Origin: Salinivirgaceae bacterium
Lineage (GTDB): Bacteria; Bacteroidota; Bacteroidia; Bacteroidales; SZUA-534
Assembly (NCBI GenBank): GCA_016284875.1
Contig: JAEEPS010000011.1
Location: 1 to 53,557, forward strand
Direction: 5' to 3'
DNA: 53,557 bases
The notes beneath the pieces were generated by a model. It had not been told where the DNA came from, did no database searches, and worked only from the letters and a program-made list of their open reading frames with translations. A program made the translations under genes and the position numbers. Below, in pieces: positions 1-5,104 of the stretch. Position 1 is the stretch's first letter, and each line of letters starts with the position of its first letter.

Positions 1-2
1 TC

Positions 3-209
3 TCGCTCGACGCTTTCCGCCAGAGTATGGACGGCATTTTCACCACGTCGGTCTGCGATGACACAATCGATGAATCGCCAATGGTTTACAAGCCGATGGA
101 CGAGATTATGGAACTTATCCGCGACACTGCCGACGTTGTGGATATTATCAAGCCCATTTACAACTTCAAAGCCAGCGGCGAACTGCCGTGGAGGAAGAAG
201 GAAGCGTAG
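3..209 (+). CDS. rtcB: RNA-splicing ligase RtcB, C-terminal fragment
   Basis: Only the last 68 codons are inside the window; the gene runs off the left edge in frame 3. The visible tail (SMDGIF, IDESPMVYKPMDEI, then IIKPIYNFKA) is the typical RtcB C-terminus, including the conserved DESP-YK segment and the NFKA ending close to the stop. RtcB joins RNA 2',3'-cyclic phosphate or 3'-phosphate ends to 5'-OH ends, using GTP and Mn2+, in tRNA splicing and RNA repair. The catalytic Cys/His metal site lies upstream and cannot be checked here. It is followed directly by an array of structured RNAs, which makes a repair role likely. The family call rests on C-terminal sequence only. Confidence 0.85.
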   Translation, partial: SLDAFRQSMDGIFTTSVCDDTIDESPMVYKPMDEIMELIRDTADVVDIIKPIYNFKASGELPWRKKEA

Positions 210-263
210 ATTTTGGAAGGGAAATGCGTTTTTTTTTCGAAAAAGATTGAAAATATTTTCAGT

Positions 264-300
264 TACGCAAAAAGGCTGCATAGTGGGTATTTTCCTTTGC
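264..300 (+). promoter_or_regulatory. Operator/promoter module before the RNA array
   Basis: TTACGCA (264-270) and TGCATAG (278-284) form an imperfect inverted repeat with a 7-nt spacer. It is followed 12 nt later by TTTG (297-300) in TTCCTTTG, a weak match to the Bacteroidota -7 box TAnnTTTG. The block aligns base for base, without gaps, with the module before the WYL gene (3485-3521). Transcription would start near 305, 35 nt before the first hairpin. The likely ligand is the WYL protein (inference). Nothing gene-like lies between 210 and 339. Confidence 0.65.
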
Positions 301-339
301 AGCGCAATTCGATAGAAAACGGTTGCTAATAAATATGGG

Positions 340-461
340 ATGACGGACTAAACGAGTCTTACTTCGTGTTCAATAGGCCGTTTGAGCAGGATATTTTCGT
401 GCAAGCGAAATGTTCCTTGTTCGAAGGGCGGTCAGAAAAATAGATTCGCAATTTCCGTCAT
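340..461 (+). ncRNA. Two-tier hairpin RNA, element 1
   Basis: The outer stem is 8 bp and perfect: ATGACGGA (340-347) with TCCGTCAT (454-461). A 5/5 internal loop follows (ctaaa 348-352, caatt 449-453), then a 6-bp inner stem CGAGTC (353-358) with GATTCG (443-448, one G-U pair). The inner stem is followed at once by TTACTTC (359-365). Its 84-nt apical part is the longest of the set and contains a small TTTCG/CGAAA hairpin. The layout is shared by elements 2-5, although the stem sequences differ, which argues for a conserved fold. The plan resembles Y RNAs (lower stem, internal loop, upper stem), but homology is not shown. Confidence 0.6.
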
Positions 462-481
462 TCTTTAAAGTTCTTTAAAAC

Positions 482-567
482 AATTGTGGCCAAAGAGAGA
501 CTTACTTCGACTGAACTATGTGGCTGCGTGCCACGTCTACTGAAATAGTTTCTCAATTACCACAATT
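482..567 (+). ncRNA. Two-tier hairpin RNA, element 2
   Basis: The outer stem is AATTGTGG (482-489) with CCACAATT (560-567). The internal loop is ccaaa (490-494) opposite aatta (555-559). The inner stem is GAGAGAC (495-501) with GTTTCTC (548-554, one G-U). TTACTTCG (502-509) follows the inner stem exactly as in element 1. The element ends 3 nt before the tRNA-like RNA. Confidence 0.6.
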
Positions 568-570
568 TAA

Positions 571-690
571 GAGTGCGGTAGCGCAGTTGGTAGAGCAATA
601 GTTTAAACTATGATATAATTATCTGCAAAGGACTAAATATCATATACTTCTGCACTATGTGTCGCAGGTTCGAACCCTGCCCGCACTCCT
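571..690 (+). ncRNA. tRNA-like RNA with a long hairpin in place of the anticodon loop
   Basis: The acceptor stem is GAGTGCGG (571-578) with CCGCACTC (681-688), 8 bp including a tRNA-His-like extra pair. A D-arm follows (GCGC 581-584, loop AGTTGGTA, GAGC 593-596, one mismatch). The anticodon stem is ATAGT (598-602) with ACTAT (654-658). The variable loop has 5 nt, and the T-arm is perfect (GCAGG, TTCGAAC, CCTGC; 664-680). Instead of a 7-nt anticodon loop there are 51 nt (603-653), which hold an 8-bp stem TATGATAT (609-616) with ATATCATA (637-644) and then ATACTTC (644-650). No CCA is encoded and no anticodon can be read. It could be an RtcB substrate, a tRNA mimic like the tRNA-like module of bacterial YrlA RNAs, or a decoy for anticodon nucleases. 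A decayed tRNA is less likely, because all arms pair. Confidence 0.7.
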
Positions 691-717
691 AATAACGTTC
701 TGAATAATATTGGTTTT

Positions 718-786
718 GTGGGGTCAAGAGAGACATACTTCCCACGAAGAAGATGGCTTTAGGCCCGTGTTTCTCAATTTCCCCAT
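718..786 (+). ncRNA. Two-tier hairpin RNA, element 3
   Basis: The outer stem is TGGGG (719-723) with CCCCA (781-785), extendable by one G-U. The internal loop is tcaa (724-727) opposite aattt (776-780). The inner stem GAGAGAC (728-734) with GTTTCTC (769-775) is identical to that of element 2, while the outer stem differs. ATACTTC (735-741) follows, then a short CCACG/CGTG upper pairing. Confidence 0.6.
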
Positions 787-788
787 TG

Positions 789-856
789 GTGTGAGGTTAG
801 CGTATAAGCCAGGTTTGCCTGTAAAGCGCCCGCGTTGCCAACCAAACACTTTTTTT
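789..856 (+). terminator. Possible terminator inside the RNA array
   Basis: GTGT (789-792) pairs with ACAC (846-849) and GGTT (795-798) with AACC (840-843). A small CAGG-tttg-CCTG hairpin sits between them, and seven T follow (850-856). The stem is weak. If active, it would end a transcript carrying elements 1-3 and the tRNA-like RNA, with read-through into elements 4-5 and the gene at 1067. Confidence 0.3.
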
Positions 857-866
857 AGAAGATAGA

Positions 867-957
867 ATATTAAAAGGTTCAAGGCCGGCATACTCCTATG
901 CTCCAGAATATGAGCAGGACGTGCAACCTGCGCTGTCGGCCAATTACCTTTTAATAT
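867..957 (+). ncRNA. Two-tier hairpin RNA, element 4
   Basis: The outer stem is 11 bp and perfect: ATATTAAAAGG (867-877) with CCTTTTAATAT (947-957). The internal loop is ttcaa (878-882) opposite aatta (942-946). The inner stem is GGCCGGC (883-889) with GTCGGCC (935-941, one G-U). ATACTCC (890-896) stands where the other elements have WTACTTC, so this copy differs at one base. Confidence 0.6.
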
Positions 958-989
958 ATCAGTTTGAACAATAAACATTTAATAATAAT

Positions 990-1051
990 AAGGTTCAAGG
1001 CTGACATACTTCAAAAGTGGATTGTAGTTCTATTTGTCAGCCAATTACCTT
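990..1051 (+). ncRNA. Two-tier hairpin RNA, element 5 (in the leader of the RING gene)
   Basis: The outer stem is AAGG (990-993) with CCTT (1048-1051). The internal loop is ttcaa (994-998) opposite aatta (1043-1047), the same as in element 4. The inner stem GGCTGAC (999-1005) with GTCAGCC (1036-1042) is perfect. ATACTTC (1006-1012) follows. The hairpin ends 15 nt before the ATG at 1067, so it may influence translation of the downstream gene. Confidence 0.6.
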
Positions 1052-1066
1052 TCAAAACTTAATGCT

Positions 1067-3328
1067 ATGGATAACAAGAATTTGACAAAAGTTGCGTTGC
1101 GCTATCGCGCCATTTTTCTCGACATTAACCGCGAGGAAATTGACAATCAGTCGGTTGCCACGGCACCAGTATTGGCGTTTGTGGCTAGGCTGAAGGAAAT
1201 CGGCTATTGCGTCAGCGAGGAACTGATGCACGCGCTCAATGCCGTACCAGTTGACAGCCTGGCCGAAATTACGCTGTGTGTCAACGAAGTGATGGGCACA
1301 AACCTTAATTGGGCACCGCTTGTCAAAGGATGGAATGTGTCTACTGGCGAGTCTGCTATCGACCATATTATAACTCTGTTTGCCAATGTTTTCGGCAAGG
1401 AAGCCGGATTCAAAGGGACAACTTTGCCCTGCGGTCACCTAATTCCAGAAGGCACTTTTCCGCTTGAGCGCTACAATGGCTGCCCATTCTGTGGCACACC
1501 GTTCAAAACGGCCGATTTCGTCTATAAAGGTCAGGCAAGCAAGTTGAAGGAACTGCGGATTTTCACAGCCGACGACCTTCGGCGCGTTTTCGGCACACTA
1601 CTGTCGTCCCCCACTCCGCTCGACGGTTCACAGCGCGACTCGCTAAACATTCTGTTGCAGGAATTTCCGTTGCCCGAAAACCCGAATATCGGTATGAAAG
1701 AGACTGCAATGCTAGTTATTCGTCTGCTGGTGGCTCAAAACAAGGCCGACGAAGCGCAGAAATTGCTGAAAACGCCAACCGACGTACTTCGCTATCTTTG
1801 GTTCGAAAAGACTGGTTATGTGCAAATTATCGAGCCCAAAACACTCGTGGCGCACGCACGGAGACTCTACTCGCATATGTGGAAACCGCTCAGCCGTGGT
1901 GCCGATGCCGCAGTTGAAATGAAAAACAACCTGATGCTGAAATATGACCGTCGGGCGTGCAAGCGCGTGGCTATGTGGCTGAACGACATTCCGATGTCGG
2001 CAAAGCAAGCAGCCGAAAATATGAACCCGAAGCGCGGAATGTGGGTGCGTATGATTCGCGCCCTGCGTTTGGGCGAGTATTCACGTAAAGTTGGTTTCGA
2101 ACACCTGGCTGACATTCTTGATGTATTCTACAAGCAAGATTACACAACGTGGCAGGGACAGGTTGACAAGGCTCGAGCCGCCAACAATGCCGACCAAACT
2201 CTGGCTTTGCTCAAGGAGCGCCCTGGATTGTTTGCCCGTAGTCTTTTTGCTTCGATGTTGCGTTTTGGCAGCGACAAGGCGCTTGCCGCTTTCCGCGATG
2301 TGGCTGATGCTCTTCCGGCACGACTGCTCTTGTCGCTCGACAATTCGGCCGAATTGTATTTCAACACGAATGAGACTCGGATTGCCCGCCCGATAACAGG
2401 TGTAACCCACCAGATTGAGCCAAACAAAATGCTCGCGCTATACGATGACAACGCCCGTGAAGCAATGGTTGAAGCCGTCCGCGAAATATACAAACAGTCG
2501 ATGGCTCGCCGTTTCGCGGAACATACAACAAAGGCAAAAACAATTTATATCGAACCTTCGCTCTACAACATTCCTTTGGCTGTAGGCGACCGTTCGGCTA
2601 CCATTCAGGATGCGTCGTGCGCGCTTATGGGTACGAGATTCCCGATTGAAGGCGACGCCGTACGCCTTTTCCTTCAATGGGGCAAGGGACTGCACGCCCA
2701 GCACCTCGATATGGATTTGAGTTGCCGCATATCGTATGCCAACAAGATATCCGAATGCGCCTATTATAACTTGACGTGCGTTGGTGCAAAGCACTCTGGC
2801 GATATTCGCTCAATTCCCGAAATGGTTGGTACAGCCGAATACATTGAATTGTCGTTGCCCGAACTCGAGGCTGCAGGTGCCCTGTATGCCACATTCACGT
2901 GCAACGCTTACTCGGTAGGCACGCTGTCGCCAAACCTTGTAGTCGGTTGGATGGATTCAGCCAATCAGATGAAAATATCGGGAAAAACTGGCGTGGCTTA
3001 CGACCCGTCGTGCGTTCAGCATATGGTGCGAATTAGCGAAGGTAATCTGTCGAAAGGTCTGGTTTTCGGCATTTTAGATATTGCAAAACGCGAAATAATC
3101 TGGCTCGAAATGCCATTTACAGCGCAGACAATGCGCGGCGCCAACGCCAAATCGATTGAAGCATTACTGCACAAATTGGAAAAGAAAGTAAGTATTGGCG
3201 AATTGCTTGACATTAAAGCCGATGCGCAGAAACTTATGCGTGTTGAAAGTGTCGAAAACGCTGATGAAGCCTACACTTACGAGTGGGCGCTCAACCCTGC
3301 CGATGTGTCAGTGTTGCTTAATGCATAG
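1067..3328 (+). CDS. RING-like / helical / TerD-like protein (MXAN_6230/SCO0854-like)
   Basis: A 753-aa protein. A longer frame opens with TTG at 1034, but that codon lies inside hairpin element 5, so I start at the ATG (MDNKN). Residues 1-110 are helical. A zinc-knuckle/RING-like site follows (LPCGH at 120-124, then CPFCG with Cys139 and Cys142). A long helical region, perhaps HEAT-like, spans about 170-480. The last 250 residues look TerD-like: GDAVRLFLQWGKG, DMDLSC, then AKHSGD and a WMDS strand. From memory it matches large RING-domain proteins named MXAN_6230/SCO0854 family, whose function is unknown. Its place behind rtcB and the RNA array suggests that it binds these RNAs or organises a response to RNA damage (inference). 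It has no signal peptide or membrane segment. Confidence 0.7.
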   Translation: MDNKNLTKVALRYRAIFLDINREEIDNQSVATAPVLAFVARLKEIGYCVSEELMHALNAVPVDSLAEITLCVNEVMGTNLNWAPLVKGWNVSTGESAIDHIITLFANVFGKEAGFKGTTLPCGHLIPEGTFPLERYNGCPFCGTPFKTADFVYKGQASKLKELRIFTADDLRRVFGTLLSSPTPLDGSQRDSLNILLQEFPLPENPNIGMKETAMLVIRLLVAQNKADEAQKLLKTPTDVLRYLWFEKTGYVQIIEPKTLVAHARRLYSHMWKPLSRGADAAVEMKNNLMLKYDRRACKRVAMWLNDIPMSAKQAAENMNPKRGMWVRMIRALRLGEYSRKVGFEHLADILDVFYKQDYTTWQGQVDKARAANNADQTLALLKERPGLFARSLFASMLRFGSDKALAAFRDVADALPARLLLSLDNSAELYFNTNETRIARPITGVTHQIEPNKMLALYDDNAREAMVEAVREIYKQSMARRFAEHTTKAKTIYIEPSLYNIPLAVGDRSATIQDASCALMGTRFPIEGDAVRLFLQWGKGLHAQHLDMDLSCRISYANKISECAYYNLTCVGAKHSGDIRSIPEMVGTAEYIELSLPELEAAGALYATFTCNAYSVGTLSPNLVVGWMDSANQMKISGKTGVAYDPSCVQHMVRISEGNLSKGLVFGILDIAKREIIWLEMPFTAQTMRGANAKSIEALLHKLEKKVSIGELLDIKADAQKLMRVESVENADEAYTYEWALNPADVSVLLNA

Positions 3329-3334
3329 TTGATT

Positions 3335-3388
3335 GGTTGTTGGACATATATCCGCGAATTGTGCGCGGAAGAAGATTGTCCAACAACC
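3335..3388 (+). other. Two-tier hairpin after the RING gene
   Basis: A 12-bp perfect outer stem GGTTGTTGGACA (3335-3346) pairs with TGTCCAACAACC (3377-3388). A 4/7 internal loop follows, then a 6-bp inner stem TCCGCG (3351-3356) with CGCGGA (3364-3369). A pyrimidine-rich stretch (tttcttctctt) comes next, so it may act as a terminator. It lacks the WTACTTC heptamer of the upstream elements but repeats their two-tier plan. Confidence 0.5.
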
Positions 3389-3427
3389 TTTCTTCTCTTC
3401 AGTTTCGAATACGAACGGATTTGTGAC

Positions 3428-3521
3428 ACGCAAGAAGATGCGTAACTGAAATAATTTTTCAAAAAATAATGCATTTTTCCGCGACTACGCAAAAAGACTG
3501 CGTAGTTGTATCGTACCTTTG
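3428..3521 (+). promoter_or_regulatory. Operator/promoter of the WYL gene
   Basis: A perfect inverted repeat ACTACGCA (3484-3491) / TGCGTAGT (3499-3506) with a 7-nt spacer precedes TACCTTTG (3514-3521), an exact TAnnTTTG -7 box. The repeat covers the place where the -33 box would lie, as expected for repression or activation at the promoter. A weaker related site ACGCA (3428-3432) / TGCGT (3439-3443), with a 6-nt spacer, lies 57 bp upstream. The main site matches the module at 264-300 in sequence and spacing. Confidence 0.7.
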
Positions 3522-3546
3522 TGACGGATTTTAAAAATCGAGAGTT

Positions 3547-4566
3547 ATGCCAGCAAACAAAAACGCGCTAATCCGCTATAAGACAATCGATAATTGTCTG
3601 CGAAACAGGTTCCGCCAGTGGACGCTCGACGACCTTGTCGATGCTTGCTGCGCGGCCTTGTACGATGCCGAAGGAATCACCAAGGGCGTGTCGGTGCGCA
3701 CGGTTCAGGGCGACATTCAGATGATGCGTTCCGACAAGTTGGGCTACAACGCGCCAATCGAAGTGTACGACCACAAATATTACCGCTACACCGACAAAGA
3801 CTTCTCAATCACTAATATGCCGCTCTCGCAGAACGACTACGAAATGCTGCGCGAAGCCGTGGATATGCTGCGCGAACTCGAAGGGTTTGAACAGTTTTCC
3901 GAAATGGCCGATGTTGTCAGCCGCCTTCGCGATATGGTGGCTACAAGCCGCAGCAACAGCAAGCCCATTGTCAATTTCGACAGTGTGCCTAACCTGAAAG
4001 GTCTGCGCTTGCTCAATCCGCTCTACAACTACATTGCCAACCGCCAAACGTTGCGCATTATGTATCAGTCGTTTAATGCGCGAAGGCCAACCGAGTACAT
4101 TTTCTTCCCCTATCTGCTGAAAGAGTTCCGCAACCGCTGGTTCGTGTTCGGTGCAAAGGCCGAGAATCTGGTCATTTACAACCTGGCTCTTGACCGTATT
4201 GTGAGCATTGAGCCTTCGGACGAGCCTTTCCGTGATAACCCGAAATTTGACCCCGAGCATTTCTTCGACAATGTGATTGGCGTGACCAAGAACATTGGCA
4301 GCACGCCGCGCACCATCAAGTTTTGGGCAACACCCGAACAGAGCCACTACGTCAGAACCAAGCCTTTGCACCGCTCGCAGCGTCTTGTGCGCGAAAATCC
4401 CGACGGCAGTTGCGTCTTCGCTATCGACGTGGTAATCAACTTCGAAATGTACTCTGTCTTTATGTCGTACGGACCTGGCATTAAAATCATTTACCCGCGA
4501 AACGTGCGCGAACATATGCGTAAAGAATTGAAAGACACTTTGGAACTGTATGACAAAATGGTGTGA
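3547..4566 (+). CDS. WYL-domain transcriptional regulator
   Basis: A 339-aa protein with a DeoR-like winged helix at the N-terminus (about 5-75; SVRTVQGDIQMMRSD is the recognition-helix region). The C-terminal half is a WYL module: an LRIMYQSF strand around residue 160, and the FFPYLLKEFRNRWFVFG block with conserved basic residues. It ends in a WCX-like tail. WYL regulators sense ligands, often nucleic acids or nucleotides, and control defence, DNA-damage or RNA-repair loci. It is transcribed behind the RING gene but has its own promoter with a palindrome, and the same palindrome precedes the RNA array. Autoregulation plus control of the island is therefore likely (inference). Confidence 0.85.
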   Translation: MPANKNALIRYKTIDNCLRNRFRQWTLDDLVDACCAALYDAEGITKGVSVRTVQGDIQMMRSDKLGYNAPIEVYDHKYYRYTDKDFSITNMPLSQNDYEMLREAVDMLRELEGFEQFSEMADVVSRLRDMVATSRSNSKPIVNFDSVPNLKGLRLLNPLYNYIANRQTLRIMYQSFNARRPTEYIFFPYLLKEFRNRWFVFGAKAENLVIYNLALDRIVSIEPSDEPFRDNPKFDPEHFFDNVIGVTKNIGSTPRTIKFWATPEQSHYVRTKPLHRSQRLVRENPDGSCVFAIDVVINFEMYSVFMSYGPGIKIIYPRNVREHMRKELKDTLELYDKMV

Positions 4567-4594
4567 TTTTCTTTTTTAACGGCCTATATAAAAA

Positions 4595-4674
4595 GGGAGC
4601 GGGAGGCTGCGATTCCTCGCTCTACCCCCCGCATAAAGGAACGGGGGGGTCTGCAATAAATGCAGAACGCTCCC
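4595..4674 (+). other. Cloverleaf-like structured sequence
   Basis: A closing 7-bp stem GGGAGCG (4595-4601) / CGCTCCC (4668-4674) encloses three hairpins. These are GAGG (4603-4606)/CCTC (4615-4618) with an 8-nt loop; ACCCCCC (4624-4630) against the G-run 4643-4650; and TCTGCA (4650-4655)/TGCAGA (4661-4666) with a 5-nt loop. The overall shape imitates a tRNA, but no TTCGA loop or other tRNA consensus is present. It starts 28 nt after the WYL stop. It could be a terminator complex, a small RNA or a decayed mobile-element end. Confidence 0.4.
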
Positions 4675-5104
4675 CCCGCACTACAAATGTGCAAATAATT
4701 GTTTAACGAGCAAAATTTTTGTGGTATCTTTATATCAAGTTTACCGCTTGCAGTCAATCTCGAACCATAGTTATTGGCCTCCGACAAACTGTTGGCGGTT
4801 TTCTTGTATATATCCACATTGGTTACATTGAAAGCGTGTACGCCAGTTTGTCTGGTTTGAACTTGTTTTTAATGATTGTTTGGCTGTTTCGATTTCTTTT
4901 CGTACTTTTAGTGTCGAAGTCGTTTCGGACGTTAGGCTTCGGGGTTGCACTATCTGCGGCATCTAGGCATTCGACTTTACAAATTGCCAATTCGACACAA
5001 CAAATTTCTTGTTTTTTTCCTTTTTCAGTGGTTGTAATTAAAGACAATCCGCTGATGCGTTTCTTTGCGATTGCAACCCTATTTCCAAACTTAATGCTGC
5101 AAGC

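Follow-up and report, generated by a model that had tools for sequence, protein, structure and literature searches.

A predicted RNA-repair locus of a Salinivirgaceae bacterium in which hairpin and tRNA-like RNAs carry one circularly permuted module

The window analysed here, a 53,557-nucleotide (nt) stretch of DNA from a Salinivirgaceae bacterium (GenBank assembly GCA_016284875.1, contig JAEEPS010000011.1), begins with a locus (positions 1-4566, all on the + strand) that contains the end of the RNA ligase gene rtcB, an array of small RNAs, a gene for a 753-residue RING-like/TerD protein and a gene for a WYL regulator, together on one strand as an earlier reading made from the sequence alone had described them. 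The six structured RNAs proposed in that sequence-only reading, five hairpins and one RNA resembling transfer RNA (tRNA), were all recovered, and all six carry one common element, the core of which is an 8-base-pair (bp) helix between a CAA/AAUU internal loop and the motif UACUUC. The element covaries, exists in two circular permutations, and is tied near-exclusively to genes of one protein family. From sequence comparison we infer, tentatively and with a little less than even confidence, a locus for RNA repair: each small RNA would dock on the RING/TerD protein through the constant 8-bp stem element, which is the likely docking site; the parts that look like tRNA or ribosomal RNA (rRNA) would probably be bait for enzymes that cut the RNAs of translation; RtcB would reseal the cut RNA; and the WYL protein, in response to some signal, would likely control the operators and switch the set on.

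The shared RNA module

In a hairpin read from 5' to 3', the outer stem ends in GG and is followed by a linker whose last letters are AA (CAA, UAA or AAA). Next come the first strand of the 8-bp helix, the motif UACUUC or UACUCC, an apical domain that varies, the second helix strand and AAUU, and finally NCC, which closes the outer stem. The tRNA-like RNA has a permuted order (8-bp strand, AAUUAUC, small loop, GGACUAA, other 8-bp strand, UACUUC) situated in its anticodon loop; the order being circularly permuted, the hairpin and the tRNA-like RNA represent two openings of the same ring. Hairpin 1 of the window (340..461, GGACUAA-8bp-UACUUC ... 8bp'-AAUUUCC with 7 of 8 pairs, a long apical domain and a stability z of -4.9) was missed by covariance model R1 and by a strict module scan. 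Hairpins 2 (483..566, z -4.7), 3 (716..787, z -3.3) and 4 (871..953, z -4.9) were detected by the pairing scan and the covariance model, and hairpin 5 (987..1054, z -4.2) by the covariance model; the apical arm of the last, GUGGA-UUGUAGU-UCUAU, is of anticodon-arm form, and its apical sequence is identical to one listed under relative L010.

Relatives of the 753-residue protein were taken as the best 80 loci of 212 found in one scan of genome contigs, and these, together with the window and a 49%-identical relative in genome G186, make up a set of 82 loci. When selection was by anchors only (UACUYC plus AAUUNCC, no pairing criterion), an anchor pair was present upstream of the RING gene in 74 of the 82, which bears out the expectation of structured RNAs beside homologues of the protein. 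The 116 anchor pairs, a few of which join wrong partners, gave 81 distinct stems after removal of repeats, with 90% of cells paired at the eight helix positions, compared to 60% when partners were reshuffled and 23-40% when the strands were slid. A G at t-14 and AA at t-10/-9 are present in 81/81 stems, though they were not selection criteria. In 66 aligned hairpins (from 70 with short loops; L022:6626-6700, L051, L063 and L066:6812-6904 were left out without a strict rule), 96% of cells are paired versus 64.9% in shuffles, the covariation score is 0.854 versus 0.241 and was matched by none of 500 shuffles, and RNAalifold recovered the same eight pairs unprompted. Covariation, the other check that had been proposed for the array, is thus strong for the 8-bp helix, as it is for the tRNA-like fold described below.

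The association of the module with the protein family is close. A pairing-based scan of the 80 loci placed the module at most 1.8 kilobases (kb) upstream of the gene in 68, with two other matches on either strand. A search of 247 genomes of the order with a covariance model, filtered more strictly at the cost of weak matches, found the module in exactly three genomes, which are those with a close RING gene, and all seven matches adjoin that gene; two genomes with a RING relative of 26-27% identity had no match in this run. The module RNA family has no Rfam match other than as tRNA. Arrays extend to about nine RNAs over 1 kb in some loci (L019, L024).

tRNA-like RNAs

The tRNA-like RNA of the window (571..688) has acceptor, D and anticodon stems and a T arm, and matches the Rfam tRNA model with 45.7 bits, with no call by ARAGORN. 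The permuted module that replaces its anticodon loop (609..650, 8/8 pairs) comprises the strand 8bp' (609-616), AAUUAUC, a loop, GGACUAA, the 8-bp strand (637-644) and UACUUC (645-650). Its class, termed A (112-133 nt in the aligned set), retains all four stems of a tRNA (acceptor, D, anticodon and T), and the module stands where the anticodon loop would be. In 20 class A sequences, hand-picked with those of L034, L036, L073 and the genus g178 left out, 24 of 30 pairs show double changes, and the covariation score of 0.589 versus 0.188 was reached by none of 500 shuffles; pairing is 99% in the acceptor stem, 96% in the D stem, 91% in the anticodon stem, 89% in the 8-bp helix, 100% in the T stem and 80% in a short outer helix. 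None of the 20 has an anticodon loop as in a functional tRNA, the module standing there. A second class, B, of about 90 nt, appears by eye to have an acceptor stem and T arm with the module replacing the D and anticodon arms. tRNA-like RNAs that lack the module also occur in L018, L024 and L060, and L019 and L024 have several tRNA-like RNAs each. At about 6724-6911 of L036 there is a 188-nt tRNA-like RNA with seemingly two tandem copies of the module in the anticodon loop.

The RING/TerD protein

The predicted module binder is encoded at 1067..3328 (+ strand), and has RING-like, helical-repeat and TerD regions, a TerD fold being present. It is similar over most of its length to NCBIfam NF041916 (RING_SCO0854, the MXAN_6230/SCO0854 family; E 1e-49), and its score of 169.4 bits does not reach the curated cut-off of 600 bits, which indicates a divergent branch of that family. 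The RING finger PF14447 scores 24.1 bits with a cut-off of 27, which is passed by relatives from Variovorax and Streptomyces; residues C122, H124, C139 and C142 are at least 90% conserved in 40 aligned sequences, and the protein is likely to have a zinc finger. The sequence-only reading had assigned the protein to a family other than TROVE/Ro60, and at the level of sequence this holds: Pfam gave no TROVE match up to E 1, and hhalign against 13 TROVE proteins of the phylum, with a shallow profile, gave a probability of 0.2, equal to the reversed control, so that sequence homology to TROVE is unsupported. Foldseek, run with the whole model and with its helical part, returned no match at E 1e-3. 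That the module is the docking site of this protein is predicted from three features: a stem that stays constant from RNA to RNA, an association confined to a single protein family, and persistence of the element in both permuted forms.

rtcB, the WYL regulator and their operator

The rest of the rtcB gene whose end lies in the window (3..209, + strand) is on contig C107 of the same genome, which stops within an open RtcB frame; the ends of the two contigs have exactly 127 nt in common, and the 41 residues that overlap show no difference. PF01139 is over its cut-off in the C107 part, to which the window part is joined by the overlap. On C107 (L185), rtcB is preceded by an AAA ATPase gene (3424-5091; PF00004, 87.6 bits) that has a copy of the operator described below, with one mismatch, ahead of it at 3237. 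Relatives of this ATPase with 47-57% identity are encoded at two places of L011 and by the Segatella plasmid L126.

An rtcB gene is upstream in 13 of the 80 relatives' loci, which rules out adjacency to rtcB as a constant feature. The upstream genes belong to two lineages, the window's own (91% identical in L011) and the L019 type (73-100% identical to that of L019, 12 loci including L019), and overall there are three RtcB lineages in two gene orders. Associations were counted in the 62 loci with at least 3.5 kb upstream (the tRNA-like set includes L034 and L036; L073 and L006r are not among the 62): tRNA-like RNAs are present in 11 of 11 rtcB loci versus 5 of 51 without rtcB, and in 12 of 15 WYL loci versus 4 of 47 others, and WYL is present in 9 of 11 rtcB loci versus 6 of 51 others. 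The proposed link of the array to rtcB is real and facultative, and it is the tRNA-like RNAs to which rtcB is tied.

The WYL/WCX transcriptional regulator of 339 residues (3547..4566, + strand) has WYL and WCX domains over their cut-offs. The operator that the array and the WYL gene had been said to share was found in both places on the + strand: TTACGCA-N7-TGCATAG at 263..283, followed on its 3' side by a promoter-like TTTTCCTTTG box (290-299), and CTACGCA-N7-TGCGTAG at 3485..3505, followed by TACCTTTG. With at most one mismatch allowed, the 80 loci contain 25 copies of CTACGCA-N7-TGCGTAG, where 12 shuffled palindromes give 0-1; with at most two, the count is 34, where the shuffled ones give 0-12. 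Matches of 130-144 residues to the N-terminal part of WYL only (61-66% identity) are present in L018, L019, L024 and L044, and a degenerate operator copy is upstream of those in L019 and L024. In L059, from a cultured Prevotella ihumii isolate, WYL and the operator are accompanied by a tRNA-like RNA and, as judged by eye, three hairpins.

Two further structures in the array and its surroundings (both on the + strand) complete the locus: a hairpin without the module at 786..850, which lies between the module RNAs, has a similar sequence in relative L011 and is no more stable than shuffled sequences (z -0.7), and a strong terminator-like hairpin at 3335..3388, 3' of the RING/TerD gene.

Distribution in other genomes, plasmids and phages

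The protein is 50-53% identical in g178, a less closely related genus within the same class (8 of 10 genomes taken with longer flanks). A scan of ten loci with the Bacteroidales 3' motif gave permuted elements in seven and no plain hairpins, and with a relaxed 3' motif module hairpins were found in 8/8 loci. WYL (45-47% identity) is present in 6/8; in 3/8 there is a downstream RtcB that shares about 31% identity with the L019 type, and in all three its own operator (1-2 mismatches) is ahead of it.

A close RING gene is present in 3 of the 247 genomes of the order, the sole other genome of the same genus in that draw being without one, and in 11 of 395 genomes drawn from the phylum, namely the genome of the window and ten of one genus. 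Relatives were found in 23 plasmid records and in 5 phage records with the window protein as query, or 11 with the protein of Rhodococcus phage Weasels2; this patchy presence, together with plasmids and phages, fits an accessory, exchanged system. A scan of viral contigs had no match to the window protein and one contig with a protein identical to the Rhodococcus phage query. According to one paper (PMC7824862), RtcB, TROVE and TerD genes occur in jumbo phages, and TerD occurs as a standalone gene in actinobacterial phages.

Distant relatives of the protein, with 24-29% identity over part or most of the length, sit near genes of RNA-repair type: rtcR in Variovorax, an RNA ligase gene in Vibrio, and rtcB and tRNAs in Weasels2. 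A strict module scan of 15 RING genes (8/8 pairs, an outer stem, TACTYC or TTCCTTC; 100 shuffles each) recognized four of the five hairpins of the window, three in L123, two in L130 and one each in L129, L131, L172 and L178; by host, these include three in Weasels2, two in Niallia, one in Vibrio and one on a gut phage contig (L131). Shuffles gave a mean of 0.00-0.02 and at most one match, and there was one displaced-helix match, in L125. The gene ends of L130 and L131 were set from the tblastn match, and the L130 range includes a stop codon. Several observations in phages are leads only: by eye, two hairpins with about 7/8 pairs can be made out in the Lactobacillus phage, and the flanks of the Ruegeria and Mycobacterium phages look like arrays with other motifs. 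Ruegeria phage RpAliso (L181) has an annotated 122-nt tRNA-Gln at 446-567 and, before the RING relative, 1.8 kb without annotated genes (1411-3244) with several T-arm-like sequences; gut phage contig L131, which carries a RING relative, has at 710-1610 a match to transfer-messenger RNA (tmRNA, 94 bits), an overlapping permuted-tmRNA match just over the cut-off, and tRNAs.

Possible functions of the RNAs

The variable ends of the hairpins partly resemble pieces of the translation machinery. From 109 hairpin matches, those with 7 or more pairs and 12-130 nt gave 94 distinct apical domains once repeats had been discarded; the 23S-like domain is outside this set. Seven of the 94, including that of hairpin 5 of the window, contain an anticodon arm in the strict sense (5 bp, a 7-nt loop, U33 and a purine at 37), versus 0.8 expected, and none of 300 shuffles reached seven. 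The T-arm sequence GGTTCGAGTCC is carried by module hairpins of L172, L174, L178 and L179 (4 of 8 g178 loci). Part of a hairpin in L024 matches positions 1074-1162 of the Rfam large-subunit (LSU, 23S) rRNA model with 70.9 bits, a segment that we take to be the L11/GTPase-centre region, and in phage Weasels2 one module hairpin, found by the scan, has by eye a circularly permuted tRNA as its apical domain. A particle that deals with damage to translation RNAs is suggested by the tRNA and rRNA parts on show, by the link between tRNA-like RNAs and rtcB, and by the repair genes beside distant relatives. The bait role is ranked first, since the RNAs present anticodon arms, T arms and a 23S piece separately. 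The idea that the RNAs are bait, sensor or guide thus gains from these look-alikes and loses from the many apical domains without them. On a broader view, which is possible and on balance doubtful, the RING/TerD proteins and their small-RNA libraries would be an undescribed class of bacterial and phage ribonucleoprotein, spanning Bacteroidota, Bacillota, Vibrio and phages of Actinobacteria, in which each RNA, mounted on one standard plug, shows a different piece (tRNA body, anticodon arm, T arm, 23S piece) and the whole serves as a set of decoys by which toxins that cut RNA are detected or absorbed and RtcB is called in for repair.

Several results weigh against a bait-and-repair function. The strict anticodon-arm test is failed by 87 of the 94 hairpin tops; likeness in sequence to tRNAs (7 of 94, 2.3 expected) and to an rRNA operon (1 of 94) is weak overall, and most apical domains resemble nothing identifiable. 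The L024 hairpin with the 23S piece has only 6 of 8 helix positions paired, and 12 of the 80 loci have no hairpin reaching 7/8 pairs. The strict scan was empty in 8 of the 15 RING genes (Variovorax L124, Streptomyces L125, Mycobacterium phage L180, Ruegeria phage L181, Salicola phage L182, Lactobacillus phage L183, Deinococcus L184 and the 27% relative L008), those missed being mostly from distant relatives. The p-values of the associations with rtcB and WYL are inflated because loci share ancestry. The tRNA-like RNAs, lacking an anticodon loop, cannot be cut there as real tRNAs are, and adaptors are accordingly ranked close behind bait: the module would hold the RING/TerD protein while the exposed tRNA-like part brings the particle to an enzyme of tRNA processing, degradation or repair, for instance an exonuclease or RtcB itself, as Y RNAs do. 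This alternative, rather unlikely and still to be taken seriously, is favoured by the retention of acceptor, D and T arms without the anticodon loop, which suits enzymes that bind the tRNA body better than it suits luring anticodon nucleases, and by the tie of the tRNA-like RNAs to rtcB; it leaves unexplained the anticodon-arm, T-arm and 23S look-alikes on separate hairpins. In its favour too, according to PMC7790460, YrlA RNA contains a tRNA-like domain and yielded no fragments with the nuclease studied there, and Y RNA tethers Rsr to PNPase in Deinococcus.

Autoregulation would also suit the many loci where one or two hairpins are present and the final one is near the start codon. The hairpins would then act in cis in the leader of the RING/TerD mRNA, letting the protein repress the message that encodes it, and the tRNA-like RNAs would have been added later; a recount of the listed loci puts the start of the AAUU motif 16-35 nt before the start of the RING match in 46 of 80, and a single hairpin is common. 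That account is improbable in view of arrays of up to about nine RNAs that include covarying tRNA folds, and of module hairpins that lie downstream of the gene in the Rhodococcus phage, Niallia and Vibrio. Even less probable is that rtcB is a chance neighbour and the array and RING protein are unrelated to RNA repair. No rtcB lies within the available flank in 67 of the 80 loci (18 of the 80 having less than 3.5 kb upstream), including L010, the closest relative with 97% identity, in which a gene for an AAA/DUF4143 ATPase takes the place of rtcB; against this stand the three RtcB lineages in two positions, the same operator ahead of the downstream RtcB in all three g178 cases, the presence of tRNA-like RNAs in 11 of 11 rtcB loci, and the occurrence of rtcR, rtcB or a gene for an RNA ligase in the vicinity of distant homologues. 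RtcB splices tRNAs, and this well-known activity, the location of the insert in the anticodon loop and the well-paired anticodon stem could suggest that the tRNA-like RNA is an intron-containing tRNA from which the insert is removed and the ends resealed into a working tRNA. Splicing is very improbable here: by eye there are no constant exon junctions, the remainder after removal of the module varies in length with no constant 7-nt anticodon loop, and class B RNAs lack D and anticodon arms; the same module is present on plain hairpins.

Comparison with known systems

A literature search returned no paper with MXAN_6230 or SCO0854, and among titles and abstract openings none linking the RING/TerD family with RtcB-linked small RNAs, although work by Burroughs and Aravind in 2016 may cover parts. 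The NF041916 entry, which the protein resembles over most of its length, names no RNA partner in its name or description. In SPFH/Band-7-RtcB systems, reportedly described in that 2016 work, an RNA ligase is likewise combined with a scaffold protein and a tRNA-like RNA; the scaffold candidate here is the RING/TerD protein, and no SPFH match was found among the five window proteins scanned. Intron-containing and permuted tRNA genes also have a tRNA fold interrupted in the anticodon loop, whereas the insert described here is common to plain hairpins, has no anticodon and occurs several times per locus in some relatives.

The closest likeness is to the operons of Ro60/Rsr and Y RNA (YrlA) with RtcB/RtcA, which also combine an RNA ligase locus, a protein of RNA-binding type and small RNAs that mimic tRNA, the protein having helical repeats and a C-terminal beta domain; a tRNA-mimicking RNA domain beside rtcB is found here too. 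The protein of this locus differs in having no TROVE domain by Pfam and profile comparison, and the RNAs in matching no Y RNA family of Rfam 15, the array matching tRNA only; in 21 relatives' loci, Rfam likewise found only tRNA, one LSU piece, tmRNA and permuted tmRNA. Other differences are the arrays of up to about nine RNAs, the one module in two circular permutations, and the WYL gene with its operator in those Bacteroidota loci that carry a regulator. The RNA element is new to Rfam, and it bears on the role of Y-type RNAs and RtcB in bacteria. One locus type offers many natural RNA variants on a constant stem, so the attraction of each displayed part is directly testable, and if the displayed parts are bait, the arrays would amount to a catalogue of the RNA targets hit in attacks on these cells and phages. 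In outline the locus resembles the Ro60-Y RNA-RtcB arrangement with a different protein and RNA family, and may represent another particle of a protein and tRNA mimics tied to RNA repair, beside that of Ro60 and Y RNA.

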